Shown here: positions 17,450 to 26,471 of the stretch, in pieces
Numbering within the stretch: the first letter of the stretch is position 1
Layout of the letters: every line of letters begins with the position of its first letter
From: Cellulophaga sp. 20_2_10
Lineage (GTDB): Bacteria > Bacteroidota > Bacteroidia > Flavobacteriales > Flavobacteriaceae
Reading direction: 5' to 3'
DNA length: 64,000 nt
Assembly (NCBI RefSeq): GCF_023476645.1
Contig: NZ_JAMCOJ010000010.1
Location: 1-64,000 of the forward strand
Program-made: the position numbers and the translations under genes
Notes under the pieces: generated by a model
What the model saw: the letters and a program-made list of their open reading frames with translations, nothing else
Told to the model about the DNA's origin: nothing
The model's database searches: none

Positions 17450-17457
17450 TACATTTG
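17450..17457 (+). promoter_or_regulatory. -7 box of the arginine operon leader
   Basis: TACATTTG is an exact match to the Bacteroidota -7 consensus TAnnTTTG. The matching -33 position (17427-17430) reads TTAG, a weak fit. Transcription would begin near 17464, only a few bases before the leader ATG at 17466, making the leader ORF almost leaderless. Confidence 0.5.
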
Positions 17458-17465
17458 ATATTGTA

Positions 17466-17549
17466 ATGAGCAAGAACACAAACATTTTATTTACCAGCAG
17501 GGTTTCTACACCCTTAGCTATGCTTGTTCCTGCACGTCGCCGCCCGTAA
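17466..17549 (+). CDS. Arginine operon leader peptide ending Arg-Arg-Arg-Pro
   Basis: A 27-codon ORF, too short for routine callers, lies between a consensus -7 box and an intrinsic-terminator hairpin, ahead of the arginine biosynthesis operon. It begins MSKNTNILFTSR and ends AMLVPARRRP then TAA. The three consecutive Arg codons (CGT CGC CGC at 17535-17543) followed by Pro immediately precede the stop. An Arg run in a leader before arginine genes is the classical sign of amino-acid-sensing translation, either by starvation stalling or by a nascent-chain arrest. The local GC content is well above the surrounding sequence. Expression is not shown. The exact coupling between translation and termination is unresolved. 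Confidence 0.7.
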   Translation: MSKNTNILFTSRVSTPLAMLVPARRRP

Positions 17550-17553
17550 GGGT
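17510..17553 (+). promoter_or_regulatory. Leader stem enclosing the Arg codons
   Basis: ACCCTTA at 17510-17516 is the exact reverse complement of TAAGGGT at 17547-17553, giving a 7-bp stem whose 30-base loop holds the Arg codons and whose 3' arm includes the leader stop codon. A translating or stalled ribosome would disrupt it. It does not overlap the terminator hairpin, so it is not a simple antiterminator. Confidence 0.45.
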
Positions 17554-17566
17554 ATATACTTCTTTT

Positions 17567-17594
17567 GGAATTAGGTGAGTCCAGTTCCGTTTTT
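17567..17594 (+). terminator. Attenuator-like intrinsic terminator before the arg genes
   Basis: GGAATT at 17567-17572 pairs with AGTTCC at 17583-17588 (one G-U pair); after one bulged A, GG pairs with CC around the loop TGAGT. The stem is followed by GTTTTT (17589-17594). It lies 45 bases before the first arg-operon gene and after the leader ORF, where a terminator makes sense only as a conditional attenuator. TTCC at 17527-17530 could compete for the GGAA arm, but that pairing is short. Confidence 0.6.
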
Positions 17595-17638
17595 CAAAAC
17601 ATAAAATTTTTCAATACTAACATAAAAAGCAACAGTCA

Positions 17639-18265
17639 ATGAGAATTGTAATTGCTAATGCATCGCATATTAAATATGCGCAGATAATTTCTGATACTAT
17701 TACAGATTCTGCTAAGGTTCGCGGCACAGGCATTGCGAAGCGTACGCCAGAGTATATACAAAAAAGGTTGCAAAATGGTAATGCCGTTATTGCCTTAGAC
17801 GGAGAGACATTTGCAGGTTTCTGCTATATAGAAGTTTGGGGACACAATAAGTTTGTTGCTAACTCTGGTCTTATTGTACACCCAGATTTTAGAAATTTAG
17901 GGCTAGCCAAGCAAATTAAAGAACACATTTTTAAACTCTCCAGAGAAAAATTCCCCGAAGCTAAAATTTTTGGAATTACTACGGGCTTAGCGGTTATGAA
18001 AATGAATTATGAGCTTGGTTACAAACCAGTTACATTTTCTGAACTTACAGACGATCCTGAATTCTGGAAAGGGTGCCAAACGTGTAAAAATTTTGATGTT
18101 CTAACCAGAACAGAACAAAAAATGTGCTTATGCACTGGTATGCTTTACAATCCTGCTGCAAAGGCAAAAGCTACCGATAAAAAAGAAGTCGACAGTAAAG
18201 TATTTAAAAGATTAAAAAGTATTAAAGAGCATTTGTTCTTAAAAAAGAAAAATAAAGATGAGTAA
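17639..18265 (+). CDS. GNAT N-acetyltransferase of the arginine operon
   Basis: 208 residues. The GNAT fold occupies about 1-135, with the acetyl-CoA loop region HPDFRNLGLAKQI at 81-93. The C-terminal part has four cysteines, C146-x2-C149 and C163-x-C165, which look like a metal site or redox switch. As first gene of an arginine operon with no other argA or argJ visible, it is the likely glutamate N-acetyltransferase (or other N-acyltransferase) that starts the pathway. Its end overlaps argG by 8 bases. The reaction is inferred from context; the acyl donor could be acetyl- or succinyl-CoA. Confidence 0.8.
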   Translation: MRIVIANASHIKYAQIISDTITDSAKVRGTGIAKRTPEYIQKRLQNGNAVIALDGETFAGFCYIEVWGHNKFVANSGLIVHPDFRNLGLAKQIKEHIFKLSREKFPEAKIFGITTGLAVMKMNYELGYKPVTFSELTDDPEFWKGCQTCKNFDVLTRTEQKMCLCTGMLYNPAAKAKATDKKEVDSKVFKRLKSIKEHLFLKKKNKDE

Positions 18266-19454
18266 ATTAGTTTTAGCATATAGTGGTGGTTTAGATACGT
18301 CTTACTGCGCAAAATATTTATCAAAAGACAAAGGTTTTGAGGTGCACGCTGTTAGTGTAAACACTGGCGGGTTCTCTAAAGAAGAAATAACTAACATAAA
18401 AAAGAAAGCAATAGAATTAGGCGCAACAAGCTACACCTCTATAGATGCTGTACAAACATTTTACAAGAAGGTTGTAAAATATCTAATTTTTGGGAATGTT
18501 CTAAAAAACAACACGTACCCATTATCTGTTAGTGCAGAACGTATTGTACAAGCTATAGAAATTGTAAATCACGCTAAAAAAATAGGAGCTAAATACATTG
18601 CTCACGGTAGTACTGGTGCTGGGAATGATCAGGTTAGGTTTGATCTAATTTTCCAAATCATTGCTCCAGAAATCGAAATTATTACTCCTATCAGGGATAA
18701 TCAATTATCTAGAGAGGTAGAAATTGCATACCTAAAAGAAAACGGCGTAGATTATCCTTGGGAAAAAGCAAAATACTCTATTAATAAAGGGCTTTGGGGA
18801 ACTTCTGTTGGCGGTGAAGAAACATTAACGTCTCACTCCCCATTGCCAGATACAGCATATCCTAGTCAGCTTGAAGAAAGAAATCCTATAGATGTAAAAT
18901 TAACCTTTACCAAAGGAGAATTAACGGCTATTAATGGTGAAGAAGATAAACCAATTCACAACATTACAAAACTAAATACAGTTGCGTCCTTGTTTGCTAT
19001 TGGTAGAGATATACACGTTGGCGATACAATTATTGGTATTAAAGGTAGAGTTGGCTTTGAGGCTGCGGCATCTTTACTAATTATAAAAGCGCACCATTTA
19101 CTAGAAAAACACACGCTAACAAAATGGCAACAATACCAAAAAGAGCAACAAGGTAATTTTTATGGTATGTTATTACATGAAGGCAATTACCTAGATGAAG
19201 TTATGCGTAATATAGAAGTATTTTTAGCAGACACGCAAAAAAATGTTTCTGGTGATGTTTTTATTACATTACACCCATACAGATTTGAGCTTAACGGAAT
19301 AACATCTAAACACGACCTTATGAATGCTTCTTTTGGTAGTTATGGTGAAATGAATAAAGGCTGGACAGCAGATGATGCTAAAGGATTTATTAAAATAATT
19401 GCGAACGCTGGTAAAATATACAATCATGTAAATAAAAATTTAAAAGATGATTAA
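18258..19454 (+). CDS. argG: Argininosuccinate synthase
   Basis: 398 residues, normal for the enzyme, which joins citrulline and aspartate with ATP. The ATP-pyrophosphatase P-loop AYSGGLDTS is at 7-15, with AHGSTGAGNDQVRF near 114-127 and the KYSINKGLWGTS stretch in the synthetase domain. The start overlaps the acetyltransferase by 8 bases and the stop overlaps argC by 8, so translation is tightly coupled. It is the penultimate step of the pathway, the last being argH at the far end of the operon. Confidence 0.96.
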   Translation: MSKLVLAYSGGLDTSYCAKYLSKDKGFEVHAVSVNTGGFSKEEITNIKKKAIELGATSYTSIDAVQTFYKKVVKYLIFGNVLKNNTYPLSVSAERIVQAIEIVNHAKKIGAKYIAHGSTGAGNDQVRFDLIFQIIAPEIEIITPIRDNQLSREVEIAYLKENGVDYPWEKAKYSINKGLWGTSVGGEETLTSHSPLPDTAYPSQLEERNPIDVKLTFTKGELTAINGEEDKPIHNITKLNTVASLFAIGRDIHVGDTIIGIKGRVGFEAAASLLIIKAHHLLEKHTLTKWQQYQKEQQGNFYGMLLHEGNYLDEVMRNIEVFLADTQKNVSGDVFITLHPYRFELNGITSKHDLMNASFGSYGEMNKGWTADDAKGFIKIIANAGKIYNHVNKNLKDD

Positions 19455-20421
19455 CATTGGTATTATAGGCGGTTCTGGCTATACAGGAGGCGAGTTAATA
19501 AGATTACTTTTAAATCATTCTGAAGCAAATATAGATTTTGTTTACAGTACAACTAGAGCTGGAAAAAAAATAGCATCTGCTCATCAGGATTTATTAGGGC
19601 AGACAAACCTAGAGTTTACAGGAAATGTAAATCTAGATGTAGATCTTGTTTTTCTATGCCTTGGACACGGAAACTCAACTTCATTCTTACTAGAAAATTC
19701 GTTTTCTAACAATACTAAAATTATAGATTTAAGTAATGATTTTAGATTACATAATGATGCCATTTTAAATGGAAAAGAGTTTATCTACGGCTTACCTGAA
19801 ACAAATATTGAAAAAATAAAATCTGCCAGTTTTATAGCAAACCCAGGATGTTTTGCCACAGCAATTCAGCTTGCATTATTACCATTGGCTAAAGCAAATA
19901 TTTTACATAATGATGTACATATAAATGCAGTAACAGGTAGTACTGGCGCTGGCGTAAAACCAGGGGACTCTACTCATTTTAGCATGCGTAATAACAATGT
20001 ATCTTGGTACAAGCCATTTACACATCAACATTTAGGCGAAATAGGCGAAAATTTACATTCTTATAAAAATGAAATTGGCGAATTACTGTTTCTTCCGCAA
20101 AGAGGAAATTTTACTAGAGGTATTTTTGCTACTGCCTATACAAAATACAAGGGCAGTTTAGAAGATGCTTATGAGTTGTATACTAGTTTTTATGCTGACG
20201 CGAAATTTACACATATATCTGATACAGAAATTCACTTAAAACAAGTAGTAAATACCAACCAATGTCACTTGCATTTACACCTACACAATGGTAATTTATT
20301 AATTACATCTGTTATTGATAATTTACTAAAAGGCGCATCTGGACAAGCGGTACAGAATATGAATTTAATGTACGGCTTTAATGAAGATGAAGGCCTAAAC
20401 TTAAAAGCATCCGCATTTTAA
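19447..20421 (+). CDS. argC: N-acetyl-gamma-glutamyl-phosphate reductase
   Basis: 324 residues of the shorter (type 2-like) ArgC form. NADP-binding GGSGYTGGEL at 8-17, active-site NPGCFATA with Cys135, and a HQHLGEI motif for the catalytic His. It reduces N-acyl-glutamyl phosphate to the semialdehyde. In this family of pathways the acyl group could be acetyl or succinyl. It overlaps argG by 8 bases. Confidence 0.95.
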   Translation: MINIGIIGGSGYTGGELIRLLLNHSEANIDFVYSTTRAGKKIASAHQDLLGQTNLEFTGNVNLDVDLVFLCLGHGNSTSFLLENSFSNNTKIIDLSNDFRLHNDAILNGKEFIYGLPETNIEKIKSASFIANPGCFATAIQLALLPLAKANILHNDVHINAVTGSTGAGVKPGDSTHFSMRNNNVSWYKPFTHQHLGEIGENLHSYKNEIGELLFLPQRGNFTRGIFATAYTKYKGSLEDAYELYTSFYADAKFTHISDTEIHLKQVVNTNQCHLHLHLHNGNLLITSVIDNLLKGASGQAVQNMNLMYGFNEDEGLNLKASAF

Positions 20422-20448
20422 CATCAATCTAAAAAATAAAAAACCAAT

Positions 20449-21246
20449 ATGAAACTAGCTATTATAGGTGCCGGAAACTTAGGACTGTCTATTGCCAAAG
20501 GTATTTTAAACTCTAACGGTGCTACAACTATGTATTTAACAAAAAGAAATACAGATAGTATTAAAGAATTTGAAAGTTACGGAAATGTAACAGTTACAGC
20601 TAACAATAGGGAAGCAGTACAAAACTCTGATGTATTAATCTTTGCGGTACAACCAGATCATTTTGAAGGTATTTTAAATGATGTAAAAGATTTACTTACA
20701 GAAAAACACATTGTAATATCTACTATAACTGGTTTTAATATAAAAAAGATTGAAGCTGTAGTAGGCAAAGAGACTTATATAATTAGAAGTATGCCTAACA
20801 CAGCAATTTCTGTAGGACAGTCTATGACGTGTATTTGTAGTAATGAAATGGGTAAAAAACGAATAGAATTAGCCAAAGCTATTTTTAATAGAATGGGACA
20901 TTCATTAGAAATTCCAGAAAGTCAAATGCAAGCAGCAACTGTTATTTGCGCAAGCGGAATTGCCTTTTGGATGCGACTAATACGTGCAACTACACAAGGA
21001 GCTATACAATTAGGTTTTGACGCTAAAGAAGCACAAGAACTAGCAATGTATACCTGTAATGGAGCTGCTAGTTTGCTCATAGAATCTGGCAACCACCCAG
21101 AGCAAGAAATAGACCGTGTAACTACGCCAATGGGTTGTACTATTAAAGGCTTAAATGAAATGGAACACCAAGGACTTAGCTCTTCTTTAATTAGAGGAAT
21201 TGTGGCTTCGTTTGATAAAATAAGTGAGTTTAAAGTAAAAAATTAA
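20449..21246 (+). CDS. proC: Pyrroline-5-carboxylate reductase
   Basis: 265 residues. The NAD(P) motif IGAGNLGLSIAKG lies at 5-17, RSMPNTAISVGQS in the middle, and the C-terminal dimer helix GAASLLIESGNHPEQ with TTPMGCTIKGL. It makes proline from pyrroline-5-carboxylate. Its place inside an arginine operon links proline formation to the glutamate semialdehyde chemistry of arginine synthesis and is usual in Flavobacteriia. It is 27 bases after argC and 2 before argD. Confidence 0.93.
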   Translation: MKLAIIGAGNLGLSIAKGILNSNGATTMYLTKRNTDSIKEFESYGNVTVTANNREAVQNSDVLIFAVQPDHFEGILNDVKDLLTEKHIVISTITGFNIKKIEAVVGKETYIIRSMPNTAISVGQSMTCICSNEMGKKRIELAKAIFNRMGHSLEIPESQMQAATVICASGIAFWMRLIRATTQGAIQLGFDAKEAQELAMYTCNGAASLLIESGNHPEQEIDRVTTPMGCTIKGLNEMEHQGLSSSLIRGIVASFDKISEFKVKN

Positions 21247-21248
21247 GG

Positions 21249-22382
21249 ATGAATTTATTTGATGTATACCCTTTATATAATGTAACTCCGGTTTCTGCAA
21301 AAGGCAGCCAAGTTATAGATGATAAAGGTCAGGAATATTTAGATTTTTATGGTGGTCATGCAGTAATTTCTATAGGACATTCTCACCCACATTATGTACG
21401 CAGAATTAAAGAACAATTAGACAAAATTGGCTTTTATAGCAATGCCATACAAAATCCATTACAAGGGGAGTTAGCAGAAAAATTAGTACAACTATCTAAC
21501 TGCCATGATTACAATTTATTTTTATGCAATTCTGGCGCAGAAGCTAATGAAAATGCTCTAAAACTAGCATCATTCTATACTAATAAATCTAGAGTTATTG
21601 CTTTTAAAAATGGATTTCATGGGCGGACTTCTGCTGCTGTTGCGGCTACAGATAATGCCGCTATTAACGCACCCATTAACAAGCAACAAAAAGTAACTTT
21701 TTTAGAGTTTGATGACCTAAGTAGTTTTACCTCAGAAATTGAAAAAGACGATGTTTGCGCAGTTATTTTAGAGGCTGTACAAGGTGTTGGTGGTTTAGAT
21801 GAACCTACTACAGAATTTTACCAAAAAATAGAAGCTTTATGTAAAAAACACAATGTTGTTTTAATTGCAGACGAAGTACAATCTGGTTACGGTAGAACGG
21901 GTAAATTTTTTGCTTTTCAGCATCATAGTATACAACCTGACATTATAACTATTGCCAAAGGTATGGGTAATGGATTCCCAGTTGGTGGTGTTCTAATTCA
22001 GGAAAAAATTAAAGCATCTCACGGCTTATTAGGTACCACTTTTGGTGGCAACCACTTGGCTTGTGCCGCATCATTAGCTGTTTTAGAAGTTATAGAACAA
22101 GAAGATTTACTGCGTAATACAACTAAAATGCACGGCTACTTTTTAGAAAAGGCTGCAGCAATACCACAAATTAAAAAAGTAAAAGGTCGCGGCTTAATGT
22201 TAGGACTTCAGTTTGATTTTGAAGTTGGCGAACTAAGAAAAAAAATGATATACGATCAGTTTGTATTTACTGGCGGAGCTAAGGATAAAACCTTATTACG
22301 TATTCTGCCTGCACTAAACATAACCACAGCTTTAATAGATGTGTTTTTTGATGCTTTACAAGCCGAATTAAATAAATTATAA
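21249..22382 (+). CDS. argD: N-acylornithine aminotransferase
   Basis: 377 residues, class-III PLP aminotransferase. Markers: CNSGAEANENALKLA, FHGRTSAAVAATDN, IADEVQSGYGRTGK and the Schiff-base Lys237 in IAKGMGNGFPVGG, then TTFGGNHLACAA. It converts N-acylglutamate semialdehyde to N-acylornithine with glutamate as donor. The stop overlaps the carbamoyltransferase start by one base. Confidence 0.94.
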   Translation: MNLFDVYPLYNVTPVSAKGSQVIDDKGQEYLDFYGGHAVISIGHSHPHYVRRIKEQLDKIGFYSNAIQNPLQGELAEKLVQLSNCHDYNLFLCNSGAEANENALKLASFYTNKSRVIAFKNGFHGRTSAAVAATDNAAINAPINKQQKVTFLEFDDLSSFTSEIEKDDVCAVILEAVQGVGGLDEPTTEFYQKIEALCKKHNVVLIADEVQSGYGRTGKFFAFQHHSIQPDIITIAKGMGNGFPVGGVLIQEKIKASHGLLGTTFGGNHLACAASLAVLEVIEQEDLLRNTTKMHGYFLEKAAAIPQIKKVKGRGLMLGLQFDFEVGELRKKMIYDQFVFTGGAKDKTLLRILPALNITTALIDVFFDALQAELNKL

Positions 22383-23320
22383 TGAAAAATTACGTTTCCA
22401 TAGCAGCTATAGATTCGCTTCCCAATTGGGTTAACGAAGCCATAGAATTAAAGAAAAATCCTAAGAAACATAAAAACTTAGGAGAAGATAAAACCATTGT
22501 ATTATTATTCTTTAATAACAGTTTAAGAACACGGCTAAGCACACAAAAAGCTGCTCAAAACTTAGGCCTAGAAGTTATTGTAATGAATTTTGGATCTGAA
22601 GGTTGGACCCTTGAATTTACAGATGGCACTGTTATGGACCAAGGTACATCTGAACACATAAAAGAAGCTGCACAAGTGGTTTCTCAGTACTGCGATGTTA
22701 TTGGCATTAGAGCTTTTGCAAATTTACAAAGCAAAGAAGATGATGAAGCAGAATTGGTTATAAACGGATTTAAAAAATACGCTACTGTTCCTATTCTAAA
22801 TATGGAAAGCTCTGTGGGACATCCATTACAAGCATTAGCAGACGCTATTACTCTGGCAGAAAACAACACAAAGTCAAAACCAAAAGTGGTCCTTTCATGG
22901 GCGCCACACCCTAAGGCTTTACCGCATGCAGTTGCCAATTCTTTTGTAGAAATGATGCATTTACAAGATGCCGAGTTTGTAATTACACACCCTAAAGGAT
23001 ACGAGTTAAGTTCTAAAATTACAAAAGGAGCAACTATAGAATACGACCAAGATAAAGCCTTAGAAAATGCAGATTTTGTTTATGTTAAAAATTGGAGTAG
23101 CTATCAAAATTATGGGCAAGTTTTAAATAATGATAAAAGCTGGACAATGACTTTAGATAAATTAGGCGCTGCTAAATTTATGCACTGCTTGCCTGTGCGT
23201 AGAAATGTAATTGTTACAGATGCTGTTTTAGACAGCAATCAGTCTTTGGTGATAGAACAAGCAAATAATAGAACATTTGCGGCGCAAATAGCACTAAAAA
23301 AAATACTAGAAAACCTCTAA
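22382..23320 (+). CDS. argF': N-acylornithine carbamoyltransferase
   Basis: 312 residues. The carbamoyl-phosphate motif is NSLRTR at 46-51 (S-x-R-T-R), and MHCLPVRRNV appears near the C-terminus. The sequence EGWTLEF and the following EHIKEAA region are those of the acetyl/succinylornithine enzymes rather than ordinary ornithine carbamoyltransferases, as found in Xanthomonas and Bacteroides. I cannot tell acetyl- from succinylornithine specificity by eye. Use of an acylated ornithine means that deacylation (argE) comes after carbamoylation, which matches the downstream gene. Confidence 0.92.
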   Translation: MKNYVSIAAIDSLPNWVNEAIELKKNPKKHKNLGEDKTIVLLFFNNSLRTRLSTQKAAQNLGLEVIVMNFGSEGWTLEFTDGTVMDQGTSEHIKEAAQVVSQYCDVIGIRAFANLQSKEDDEAELVINGFKKYATVPILNMESSVGHPLQALADAITLAENNTKSKPKVVLSWAPHPKALPHAVANSFVEMMHLQDAEFVITHPKGYELSSKITKGATIEYDQDKALENADFVYVKNWSSYQNYGQVLNNDKSWTMTLDKLGAAKFMHCLPVRRNVIVTDAVLDSNQSLVIEQANNRTFAAQIALKKILENL

Positions 23321-23322
23321 TT

Positions 23323-24102
23323 ATGAAAGAAAAAGTAGCTGTTATAAAAATTGGTGGAGCTGTTATTGAAAACAAGGAAGAACTAAGTAAGTTTTTAGCT
23401 GCTTTTTCTAAAATTGAAGGTCCAAAAATACTAGTTCACGGTGGTGGAAAACTAGCAACTGAACTTGGAAAAAAATTAGGAATTGAATCTAAACTGGTAA
23501 ACGGAAGACGTATTACAGACGCTAAAGGTTTAGATTTAATTACTATGGTTTACGGAGGTTTAGTGAACAAACAAATTGTTGCAGAACTACAAGCTTTAAA
23601 CTGTAACGCTATTGGATTAAGTGGCGCAGATGCCAATATAATACAGGCAGTAAAACGCCCCGTAAAAGATATAGATTATGGTTTTGCTGGCGACATCACT
23701 ACTGTAAATGCCAACGCTATAGATGCAATGTTACAAAATAACTGGACGCCCGTTTTTTGTGCGCTTACACATACTAAAGCCGGACAATTACTAAATACAA
23801 ATGCGGACACCATAGCCTCTGAAATTGCAATTGCAATGAGTAGTTTATATGATACTACCTTGTATTATTGTTTTGAAAAGAAAGGTGTTTTACTAGATAT
23901 TACAAATGAAAAATCTGTAGTTAAAAAATTAAATACAGAAACCTACAAGGAACTTTTAGACAGTAAAATTATTGCTAATGGTATGTTGCCAAAACTAGAG
24001 AATTGCTTTAATGCGCTTCATAAAAAAGTAGGGACTGTATGCATAGGAGATGTTTCTATGTTAAACAAAAACGAAACGCTTTACACGACTATAACATTAT
24101 AA
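23323..24102 (+). CDS. argB: N-acetylglutamate kinase
   Basis: 259 residues of the amino-acid kinase family: VIKIGGAVI at 7-15, LVHGGGKLA at 37-45, NGRRITD near 60-66 and GLSGADANII in the substrate region. It phosphorylates N-acylglutamate ahead of argC. It lacks the N-terminal helix of the hexameric arginine-inhibited kinases, so classical feedback inhibition is unlikely, leaving room for leader-based control. It is 2 bases from both neighbours. Confidence 0.94.
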   Translation: MKEKVAVIKIGGAVIENKEELSKFLAAFSKIEGPKILVHGGGKLATELGKKLGIESKLVNGRRITDAKGLDLITMVYGGLVNKQIVAELQALNCNAIGLSGADANIIQAVKRPVKDIDYGFAGDITTVNANAIDAMLQNNWTPVFCALTHTKAGQLLNTNADTIASEIAIAMSSLYDTTLYYCFEKKGVLLDITNEKSVVKKLNTETYKELLDSKIIANGMLPKLENCFNALHKKVGTVCIGDVSMLNKNETLYTTITL

Positions 24103-24103
24103 A

Positions 24104-25168
24104 ATGGAACAGAAACAGCTTACAGAAAAGGCTTTAGATTTATTAAAGGAGCTTATCTCTATACAATCATTTTCATCAGAGGAAGATAAAACAGCAGACG
24201 CAATAGAAAACTGGTTTACAAGTTTTAATATTCCGTTTACTAGAGATAATAACAATGTTTATGCTAAAAATAAACATTGGGACAGTAATAAACCTACGTT
24301 ACTTTTAAACTCGCATCATGATACTGTAAAACCGAACTCCGCTTACACTAAAGATCCATTTAATGCACACGTAGAAAACGGCAAATTGTATGGTCTAGGA
24401 AGCAATGATGCTGGTGGTTGTTTGGTGTCTTTACTGGCTACATTTTCTCACTACTACACTAAAGAAAACTTAAATCATAACATACTTATGGTTGCTTCTA
24501 TGGAAGAAGAATCTGCCGGACCAAATAGCTTAAGAGGCCTGTTACCTAAGCTTCCAAAAATTGATGTTGCTATTGTTGGCGAACCTACATTAATGCAATT
24601 AGCCGTTGCAGAAAAAGGACTTATTGTTTTTGATGCAGAAGTAAAAGGAACTCCTTCTCATGCAGCACATCCAAATAATGACAACTCCATTTACAACACT
24701 ATAAAAGTGTTAGAGTGGTTTAAAAACTATTCTTTCTCTAAGGTTTCAGATGTTTTAGGCGAAGTAAAACTTACGGTAACACAAATTAATGCAGGCAAAC
24801 AACACAACGTTGTGCCAGCTAAGGTAGACTTAGTTATAGATGTTAGAGTAAATGACAAATACACCAATAAAGAAGTGGCGGATATGCTACAAAATGAAGC
24901 TCCTTGCAAACTTACTCCTCGTGGTTTAAAGCTAAATTCTTCAGCCATAGACAAAAACCACCCATTAGCACAGGCTGGCTTAGCTCTAGGAAGAGAAACA
25001 TATGGTTCTCCTACATTATCAGACCAAGCGGCATTAACGTGTCAATCTTTAAAATTAGGCCCAGGAGACAGCACTAGATCGCATTCTGCAGATGAGTTTA
25101 TTTATGTAAACGAAATTGAGGAAGGTATAGATTTATACATTAAAATATTAAACGGGTTTCTGCAATAA
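24104..25168 (+). CDS. argE: M20 deacylase (acetylornithine/acetylcitrulline deacetylase)
   Basis: 354 residues, M20 metallopeptidase family. Zinc and catalytic residues: NSHHDT with His72, GLGSNDAGG with Asp102, MEEESAG with Glu134/135, GEPT near 164, and a late SADEF with the final His region. With argF' acting on acylornithine, the natural substrate is probably N-acylcitrulline, giving citrulline for argG. The gene starts one base after argB. Confidence 0.92.
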   Translation: MEQKQLTEKALDLLKELISIQSFSSEEDKTADAIENWFTSFNIPFTRDNNNVYAKNKHWDSNKPTLLLNSHHDTVKPNSAYTKDPFNAHVENGKLYGLGSNDAGGCLVSLLATFSHYYTKENLNHNILMVASMEEESAGPNSLRGLLPKLPKIDVAIVGEPTLMQLAVAEKGLIVFDAEVKGTPSHAAHPNNDNSIYNTIKVLEWFKNYSFSKVSDVLGEVKLTVTQINAGKQHNVVPAKVDLVIDVRVNDKYTNKEVADMLQNEAPCKLTPRGLKLNSSAIDKNHPLAQAGLALGRETYGSPTLSDQAALTCQSLKLGPGDSTRSHSADEFIYVNEIEEGIDLYIKILNGFLQ

Positions 25169-25196
25169 GCAATCAACTAAAAAAAACGAAAAGACT

Positions 25197-26471
25197 ATGA
25201 AACTTTGGGATAAAGGATTTAGTACCGATAAAAAAATAGATCATTTTACAGTTGGTAATGACAGAGAATTAGATTTGCTACTTGCTAAATATGATATTGT
25301 TGCTTCTAAAGCACATGCAAAAATGCTGGGTAAAATTGGACTTATTACTGCACAAGAAACAGAGAGTCTAGTTAAAGAACTTAATGAGATTGCTAAAACT
25401 ATAGAAAAGGGCACTTTTGTTATTGAAGATTCTTTTGAGGATATGCACTCTAAAATAGAGTTTATACTAACAAAAAAGCTAGGTGACACCGGAAAAAAAA
25501 TACATACTGCACGTTCTAGAAACGATCAGGTTTTAGTGGCAATGCACTTGTATTTAAAAGATGAGTTATCAGAAATTAAAAGTGAAGTAAAAGTTTTATT
25601 TAACCTGCTTTTAAATCTTGCTGACAAGCATAAAAATGTACTGCTACCAGGTTATACACATTTACAAATTGCTATGCCTTCTTCTTTTGGACTTTGGTTT
25701 TCTGCCTATGCAGAAAGTTTAATAGATGATTTGTACTTTGTTGATGCTGCTTACAAAATAGCAGATCAGAATCCGCTTGGTAGTGCTGCTGGTTACGGAA
25801 GTTCTTTTCCTATAGACCGTGATTTTACTACTAAAGAAATGGGTTTTGCAACGCAGAAATTTAATGTTGTCGCCGCACAAATGGGACGTGGAAAAGTAGA
25901 AAAAGCTGCTGCTTTTGGAATTAGTAATGTTGCCGCTACCCTATCTAAAATGGCTATGGATATTTGCTTGTATATGAGTCAGAATTTTAATTTTATTTCT
26001 TTTCCGGACGAACTTACAACAGGTTCTAGCATTATGCCACATAAAAAAAACCCAGATGTGTTTGAGTTGATACGTGGTAAATGCAATAAATTACAATCTA
26101 TACCAAACCAATTAATTTTAATAACAAATAACTTACCTAGTGGCTATCACAGAGATTTACAATTGGTAAAAGAGGTAATTATACCTGCCATACAGGATGT
26201 AAAAGCGTGTTTAGAGATATTAACCTTTAGCTTAAAAGAAGTACGTGTAAACGAGACTATTTTAGACGACCCTAAATATGATTATTTGTTTAGTGTAGAT
26301 ACGTTAAACGAGTTGGTTTTAAACGGAGTGCCGTTTAGGGATGCTTATAAAAAAATGGGGAAAGAAATTAATGAAGGCACTTTTTCTCCTAAAAAGGATA
26401 TTAAACATACACACCAAGGTAGTTTAGGTAATTTATGTCTACAAGAAATTAGAAATAAATTAGTTGATTAA
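25197..26471 (+). CDS. argH: Argininosuccinate lyase
   Basis: 424 residues, fumarase/aspartase superfamily. HTARSRNDQV near 101-110, TGSSIMPHKKNPD beginning near 275 with the mobile catalytic serine loop, and QNPLGSAAGYGSSFP. It releases fumarate and arginine. It is the last gene of the operon; a strong terminator follows 30 bases after its stop. Confidence 0.95.
   Translation: MKLWDKGFSTDKKIDHFTVGNDRELDLLLAKYDIVASKAHAKMLGKIGLITAQETESLVKELNEIAKTIEKGTFVIEDSFEDMHSKIEFILTKKLGDTGKKIHTARSRNDQVLVAMHLYLKDELSEIKSEVKVLFNLLLNLADKHKNVLLPGYTHLQIAMPSSFGLWFSAYAESLIDDLYFVDAAYKIADQNPLGSAAGYGSSFPIDRDFTTKEMGFATQKFNVVAAQMGRGKVEKAAAFGISNVAATLSKMAMDICLYMSQNFNFISFPDELTTGSSIMPHKKNPDVFELIRGKCNKLQSIPNQLILITNNLPSGYHRDLQLVKEVIIPAIQDVKACLEILTFSLKEVRVNETILDDPKYDYLFSVDTLNELVLNGVPFRDAYKKMGKEINEGTFSPKKDIKHTHQGSLGNLCLQEIRNKLVD

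Follow-up and report, generated by a model that had tools for sequence, protein, structure and literature searches.

The arg operon of many Flavobacteriaceae is preceded by a conserved leader, in which a short open reading frame (ORF) carries CGN arginine codons at its end, where a first hairpin, P2, forms, and in which a second hairpin, P3, with a near-invariant tip, follows after a spacer of conserved length. How would such a leader work? We propose that arginine is sensed by the ribosome that reads the arginine codons, that occupancy of P2 is the switch, and that premature termination is the likeliest output, an explanation towards which, taken as a whole, we lean by a modest degree. Its sensing half is much firmer than its output half: codon sensing by the leader is well supported by the comparison of related sequences, while the output, be it premature termination, decay or a factor that binds P3, is something we infer.

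The window, by which we mean the whole 64,000-nucleotide stretch that was analysed, comes from a Cellulophaga genome whose nearest named relative is C. fucicola. Its features at this locus, with the kind of evidence for each, are as follows.

17450-17457, + strand: -7 promoter box TACATTTG (consensus TAnnTTTG); sequence
17466-17549, + strand: leader ORF of 27 codons, MSKNTNILFTSRVSTPLAMLVPARRRP-stop; frame open in relatives
17500-17513, + strand: P1, a possible hairpin GGGT-TTCTAC-ACCC within the leader ORF; weak
17535-17546, + strand: Arg-Arg-Arg-Pro codons CGT CGC CGC CCG, putative sensing codons; CGN conservation
17541-17554, + strand: P2 hairpin CGCCC-GTAA-GGGTA, with the stop codon in its loop; covariation
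17555-17566, + strand: A/U-rich unpaired spacer between P2 and P3; length conserved
17567-17588, + strand: P3 hairpin GGAATT-A-GG-TGAGT-CC-AGTTCC, with a bulged A and the tip GG-UGNGU-CC; covariation
17589-17595, + strand: GTTTTTC tail, which makes P3 terminator-like in the window species; sequence
17589-17638, + strand: G-poor stretch from P3 to the first gene; base composition
17639-18265, + strand: first gene, a GNAT acetyltransferase; PF00583, E 4.1e-6
18258-26471, + strand: argG, argC, proC, argD, argF-type carbamoyltransferase, argB, argE and argH; Pfam and NCBIfam

A preliminary description of this DNA had noted the -7 box, the ORF, the arginine codons, a 7-bp complementarity and the hairpin, and all of them lie at the positions it gave. 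In the window sequence, the leader folded alone reaches a z of -0.59, with 55 of 200 shuffles folding as well, and a consensus terminator scan of the window does not list the P3 hairpin. The window alone is no proof of an element; comparison with relatives is what settles its reality. The relatives comprise 189 loci with the GNAT gene, 22 of which fail the anchor CGN-CGN-C; the 134 distinct loci left were clustered to 95 representatives. Alignment A1 has 101 rows, namely the 95 representatives and six of the 22 failures, added by hand. The other 16 failures have no P3 tip adjoining the gene, L155 having a copy farther upstream (L258). Alignment A2, which is fitted to the structure, holds 100 of the 101 rows of A1 (L054 is omitted), and A3 holds 58 of 84 distinct P3 stretches.

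Promoter and leader ORF

The leader ORF runs from an ATG at 17466 to a TAA at 17547-17549, and transcription is predicted to start at about 17462. The distance from the box to the start codon is 7 or 8 nt in 48 of the 79 representatives in which both are recognised, and in F. psychrophilum the TAnnTTTG box spans -12 to -5 (PMC9723704, section 15). Because the start codon lies 7-8 nt past a box at -12 to -5, translation of the leader ORF is probably that of a near-leaderless message, with a predicted 5' UTR of about 4 nt here and of about 3-4 nt generally; leaderless mRNAs make up 5.5% of the mRNAs of F. psychrophilum (PMC9723704, section 15).

The preliminary description had suspected an arginine-codon leader ORF ahead of the arg operon, and such an ORF is indeed conserved in Flavobacteriaceae. 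It had also reasoned that an ORF lost from otherwise conserved surroundings would speak against this, and the comparison came out the opposite way: over the 20 codons that precede the Arg pair, the 95 representatives have one in-frame stop between them, against 114 and 103 stops in the other frames. P1 was considered as a fixed part of the element and set aside, since its position varies and its support is weak (mean z of -1.28 against mononucleotide shuffles of the 95 representatives).

Arginine codons and the leader peptide

The run CGT CGC CGC occupies 17535-17543. CGN stands at the penultimate Arg position in 97 of the 101 rows, and AGA or AGG in none, a count that has to be read with the fact that 95 of these rows were picked by a pattern requiring CGN; the six rows chosen without that pattern have CCN, GCN or CGN at this position. 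In 13 ORFs of the window, with 111 Arg codons among them, AGA is used 68 times and CGN 32 times. The last Arg codon, whose third base falls inside the P2 stem, ends in C in 93 of the 95 representatives, whereas the preceding Arg codon ends in T in 66, C in 26 and A in 3, and this contrast indicates that an RNA stem is selected besides the protein code.

The last 12 residues of the leader peptide contain between two and six arginines, with a mean of 3.9. Among the last 14 residues none is constant besides RR-P, the constancy of which is fixed by the selection pattern. In L142 and L149 the leader ends R-R-T; here an A in place of C gives Thr instead of Pro, and the opposite arm of P2 compensates with a U in place of G. 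Likewise, the P2 loop contains no stop in eight of the 101 rows (L130, L142, L149, L151, L163, L176, L179 and L185), and in L130 the next in-frame stop sits in the P3 tip. As far as these sequences go, the proline and the loop stop can be lost while the Arg codons and P2 are retained, and such variants favour codon sensing and oppose a fixed arrest peptide.

The P2 and P3 hairpins

In its general form, CGCCC-GUAA-GGGUG, P2 covers the last Arg codon, the proline codon and the stop. C17541 and A17554, at the outer end of P2, do not pair in the window species, which is one of 21 among 100 rows with this outermost pair open; overall, 95.2% of the cells of P2 (helix 1) are paired. A compensatory change takes C-G to A-U in two rows, and G-U becomes G-C in six, so that covariation support, as read from the alignment, is thinner for P2 than for P3. 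A 7-bp complementarity between ACCCTTA at 17510-17516 and TAAGGGT at 17547-17553, which had been described as a stem enclosing the Arg codons, is present in the window and turned out to be a local feature: its pairing score in the relatives is 13.99, against 13.8 in mononucleotide and codon shuffles. The conserved stem at the end of the leader is P2 instead, judging by the same comparison. A seeming excess of pairing between the P2 loop plus 3' arm and the ORF (8.11 against 7.35) was likewise discarded, as it is gone after pair-strength weighting (13.99 against 13.8).

The spacer between P2 and P3 is 12-13 nt long in 85 of the 101 rows and 11-14 nt long in 98, with TG at the boundary of spacer and P3 in 75. 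The his and trp pauses have a similar distance from hairpin to 3' end and a TG boundary. This likeness suggests P2 as a candidate RNA-polymerase pause hairpin, which would hold the polymerase just ahead of P3.

P3 is distinguished by its tip, in which G, T, G and G are identical in 101 of 101 rows; the tip reads GGTGAGTCC in 80 rows, GGTGTGTCC in 14 and GGTGCGTCC in three, and four other forms occur in one row each. Both outer and inner pairs of P3 covary, and the bulged A is missing in L179 and L180. An intrinsic terminator had been read here from the window, and in the window species there is indeed a hairpin with U5 within 17567-17595; as a general property, however, intrinsic termination did not stand, as at least five T in the 8 nt after P3 are found in 12 of the 95 representatives and fewer in the other 83. 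The invariant tip is not accounted for by a role in termination, and it hints at a binding partner. The possibility that P3 copies the anti-anti-SD (AGGUGA) as the main reason for its tip was rejected, since L145, L157 and L179 lose AGGUGA and the hairpin stays.

From P3 to the first gene the median distance is 49 nt, and the range is 44-56 nt with five values dropped at each end. In this stretch the ratio of C to G is 2.36 in the 95 representatives, against 1.23 in 17 upstream regions, all of them from this one window; a G-poor stretch would, as a weak indication, suit Rho.

Taken together, P2 and P3 have 96.8% of cells paired, against 90.0% in shuffles, and eight pairs are changed on both sides; compensatory cells number 85, against 26.8 in shuffles. 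None of 500 shuffles reaches this structure on any measure, and slid versions of it are paired in 24-65%. RNAalifold, run on A1, which is not fitted to the structure, recovered P3 together with the inner two pairs of P2, with eight of ten pairs compensated. All of the seven column pairs with the strongest covariation belong to the P2/P3 structure; the eighth lies outside it and equals the seventh to three decimals.

Is there a conserved partner that would turn this pair of hairpins into the textbook two-hairpin switch? The preliminary description had found none evident in the window, and the relatives bear this out, with no 2:3 pairing conserved among them and no covariation that points to one. 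A trp-like 2:3 antiterminator, formed by the spacer with a P3 arm, has a mean of -2.5 kcal/mol, against -3.0 kcal/mol with shuffled spacers, and was rejected, as 61% of the spacer shuffles are as good. A covariation scan of the alignment revealed no alternative pair able to form an antiterminator. Similarly, pairing of the P3 tip is at the level of shuffles with the ORF (6.87 against 6.79), with the stretch before the gene (5.85 against 5.96) and with the start of the first gene (6.06 against 6.11), and so is pairing of the P2 3' arm downstream (6.79 against 6.97).

Distribution of the element

Within the family, a covariance model of P2 and P3 (R1) matches 182 of 299 genomes and, counted by genus, 150 of 236. 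Each listed genome has one match with the exception of G092, whose weak second match (E 6.2e-4) falls within a long ORF, on the opposite strand, and was judged to be chance. The match in G348 (E 5.5e-4) looks like a coding region, as judged from its sequence, and the 182 positive genomes may include a few weak false matches. The GNAT gene occurs in 63 of the 102 sampled genera (G018-G119), and R1 at E 1e-3 in 59 of these 63. When the four others were rechecked, G098 was found to have a weak copy just before the GNAT gene (E 0.029), G082 and G086 had weak matches elsewhere only, and G050 had none. Conversely, G101 has R1 without the usual GNAT. A model of P3 alone, searched in 40 genomes, detected the arg copy in 23, with E values of 4.9e-4 or below; all non-arg matches were at E 0.0016 or worse, and there was a single copy per genome.

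Four of 295 genomes match in a class-level search, all of them Flavobacteriaceae, a family with few members in that sample. Two matches on viral contigs were dismissed as chance, the contigs being GC-rich and phage-like and without arg genes. By eye, the outgroup loci L183, L189 and L196 have Arg codons, a P2-like stem and, at the place of P3, another hairpin that lacks the tip and that has a U-rich tail in L189. No such element lies near the gene in L190-L195 or L197-L200. In L190 and L191 (family f15), an ORF with an Arg-containing, REPNR-like tail precedes the GNAT gene and is followed by a GC-rich hairpin; this may be an arginine leader in its own right.

None of 196 genomes of the order yielded an ArgR (PF02863) match, and 8 of 14 control genomes did, Bacteroides included. 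The leader would be the likely arg regulator in Flavobacteriaceae.

Proposed mechanism and alternatives

We propose that the transcript, which would start about 4 nt before the ORF, is translated as a near-leaderless message, and that P2 is a hairpin-stabilised RNA-polymerase pause right before the synthesis of P3. With ample charged tRNA-Arg, the ribosome would finish at the stop codon and depart, and P2 would refold; with P2 and P3 folded, premature termination would be favoured and the operon turned down. Where a U-run follows P3, as in the window species and a few others, termination may be intrinsic; elsewhere it may rely on Rho or another factor. With tRNA-Arg short, the ribosome would be parked on the CGN codons, P2 would stay open and the operon would be transcribed. 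An antiterminator hairpin has no part in this scheme; the switch would be whether a ribosome occupies P2. A bolder version, which we regard as possible but doubtful, is that this is a switch of new design, in which stalling at Arg codons is read by P2 without an antiterminator, P3 binds a factor or arginine, and the whole replaces ArgR throughout the family.

Little is known about amino-acid regulation in Flavobacteriaceae, a family abundant in the sea and in soils. Leader-peptide attenuation is familiar from the his, trp, leu, thr and phe operons, and the leader described here, if our reading is true, would add an arg member to the class. It also poses the question of how a stalled ribosome can control an operon without an antiterminator, in a bacterial group that does not use Shine-Dalgarno pairing (PMC9976891, in part). 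Furthermore, the existence of a hidden RNA-binding partner can be tested directly, given the invariant tip of P3.

What else could account for these features? That the element takes two inputs, codon sensing and the binding of an arg-specific protein or of arginine to P3, which would decide termination or stability, seems to us unlikely. The identity of the tip in all 101 rows, the bulged A beside two G-C pairs, the single P3 copy per genome and a shape like those of the MS2 coat-protein operator and of arginine-binding RNA folds all speak for it; against it, no partner emerged, the bulge is absent from L179 and L180, the codons would already sense arginine, and L183, L189 and L196 have a hairpin without the tip at the place of P3. 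Rather improbable, in our judgement, is control of mRNA decay or translation, in the manner of speF/orf34, with a stalled or terminating ribosome altering the access of a nuclease or access to the start site of the first gene, and transcription unaffected. The two Arg codons of Salmonella orf34 act partly in this way (PMC6386406, in part), and P3 stands at a near-constant 49 nt before the first gene, but neither P3 nor P2 pairs with the gene start above chance in the comparisons given above (6.06 against 6.11 and 6.79 against 6.97).

The preliminary description had entertained a nascent-chain arrest at RRRP. In such a reading, the R-R-R-P chain would stall at the stop codon on free arginine. 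RR-P does lie directly before the stop, and Pro-stop is a slow context, as in TnaC; yet P2 is kept in the two lineages in which Pro has become Thr (L142 and L149), 8 of 101 rows have a displaced stop, and the residues before the Arg pair are variable. The conserved peptide and stop context that mark arrest peptides such as TnaC, SpeFL and fungal AAP were not found among the relatives, and we give this explanation very little weight. As for a textbook trp/his attenuator, with P3 as an ordinary intrinsic terminator, GTTTTTC does follow P3 in the window species, but there is no conserved 2:3 pairing, the U-run occurs in 12 of 95 representatives, and the invariant tip would go unexplained, which leaves the idea barely credible.

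Relation to known leaders

The codon-sensing leader that we favour resembles the trp and his attenuators of E. coli (Rfam Trp_leader and His_leader) in having a short ORF with codons for the product of its own operon, and in a first hairpin that lies over these codons and carries the stop, followed by a second hairpin downstream. Of the features that define these attenuators, comparison revealed a leader ORF with its frame and own-amino-acid codons kept, and a first hairpin over the regulatory codons, P2; a mutually exclusive antiterminator was found neither upstream nor downstream, and a U-run terminator is present in the window species and absent in general (12 of 95). In contrast to trp and his, the arg leader has no antiterminator pairing, a second hairpin mostly without a U-run, an invariant tip, and no Rfam match. 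With two defining features absent, it is attenuator-like in its presumed working but is not filed as a trp/his member. A search of the window with Rfam returned only a tRNA at gathering score, and nine leader loci searched at E up to 1 returned tRNA and a weak minus-strand DUF805 match (E 0.11), none on the element.

Likenesses can also be drawn with leaders that read arginine. In orf34 of Salmonella speF, consecutive Arg codons sense arginine by ribosome pausing, with a hairpin past the stop and the involvement of Rho; however, the target is ornithine decarboxylase, the structure is another one, the leader is 516 nt long, and the codons are AGG/CGG near the start of the ORF (PMC6386406, in part). 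Similarly, the leader ORF rbfL of S. aureus pauses at Arg codons under arginine limitation but has eight codons, with AGA/AGG, and blocks the next ribosome-binding site, and the parts of PMC13009471 that deal with it describe no conserved hairpins. uORFC-8-2, before cysS, shares tandem regulatory codons in a first stem, then a second stem, and a single gene class; it differs in an intrinsic terminator with a U-run, in reading cysteine, and in belonging to alphaproteobacteria (PMC8632094, in part).

Within the same family, F. psychrophilum is reported to show strong clues of leader-peptide attenuation before amino-acid operons, but the passages of PMC9723704 covered here set out neither a leader for arginine nor a run of codons nor a structure. 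Leader-like sORFs are mentioned for Bacteroides (PMC7366714, in part), and the main text of PMC11109978 mentions neither arginine nor Bacteroid-. Searches of an open-access library turned up no account of an arginine leader in Bacteroidota. In the same order we observed hisG leaders in L210 (about 1330-1470) and L220 (about 1320-1440), with the His runs MRNNNTHHHHFTTCYQAS and MNINRLHHHPHYKNFTEVSE, strong hairpins and U-runs. These are plain attenuators, and codon-sensing leaders thus do occur in the order.

The arg operon and its proline genes

In the operon of the window, argC, proC, argB and argH pass NCBIfam cut-offs, and the other genes match below cut-off and are named by best match and gene order. 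In G006 (L257) and G101 (L255) the first gene encodes a different GNAT-like protein, the leader is kept and the arg operon follows, which indicates that the leader belongs to the operon.

Finally, we note that proC lies inside the arginine operon (20449-21246 of the window), that proA and proB are also in the operon in L261 and L263, and that the L262 stretch has proA and proB without proC. The Arg-Arg-Arg-Pro end of the leader uses CCG, a locally rare codon, and combined sensing of arginine and proline by the leader is conceivable. As to the variants ending in RRT, one (L276) is without pro genes in the 10 kb read, and the other (L277) has proC.
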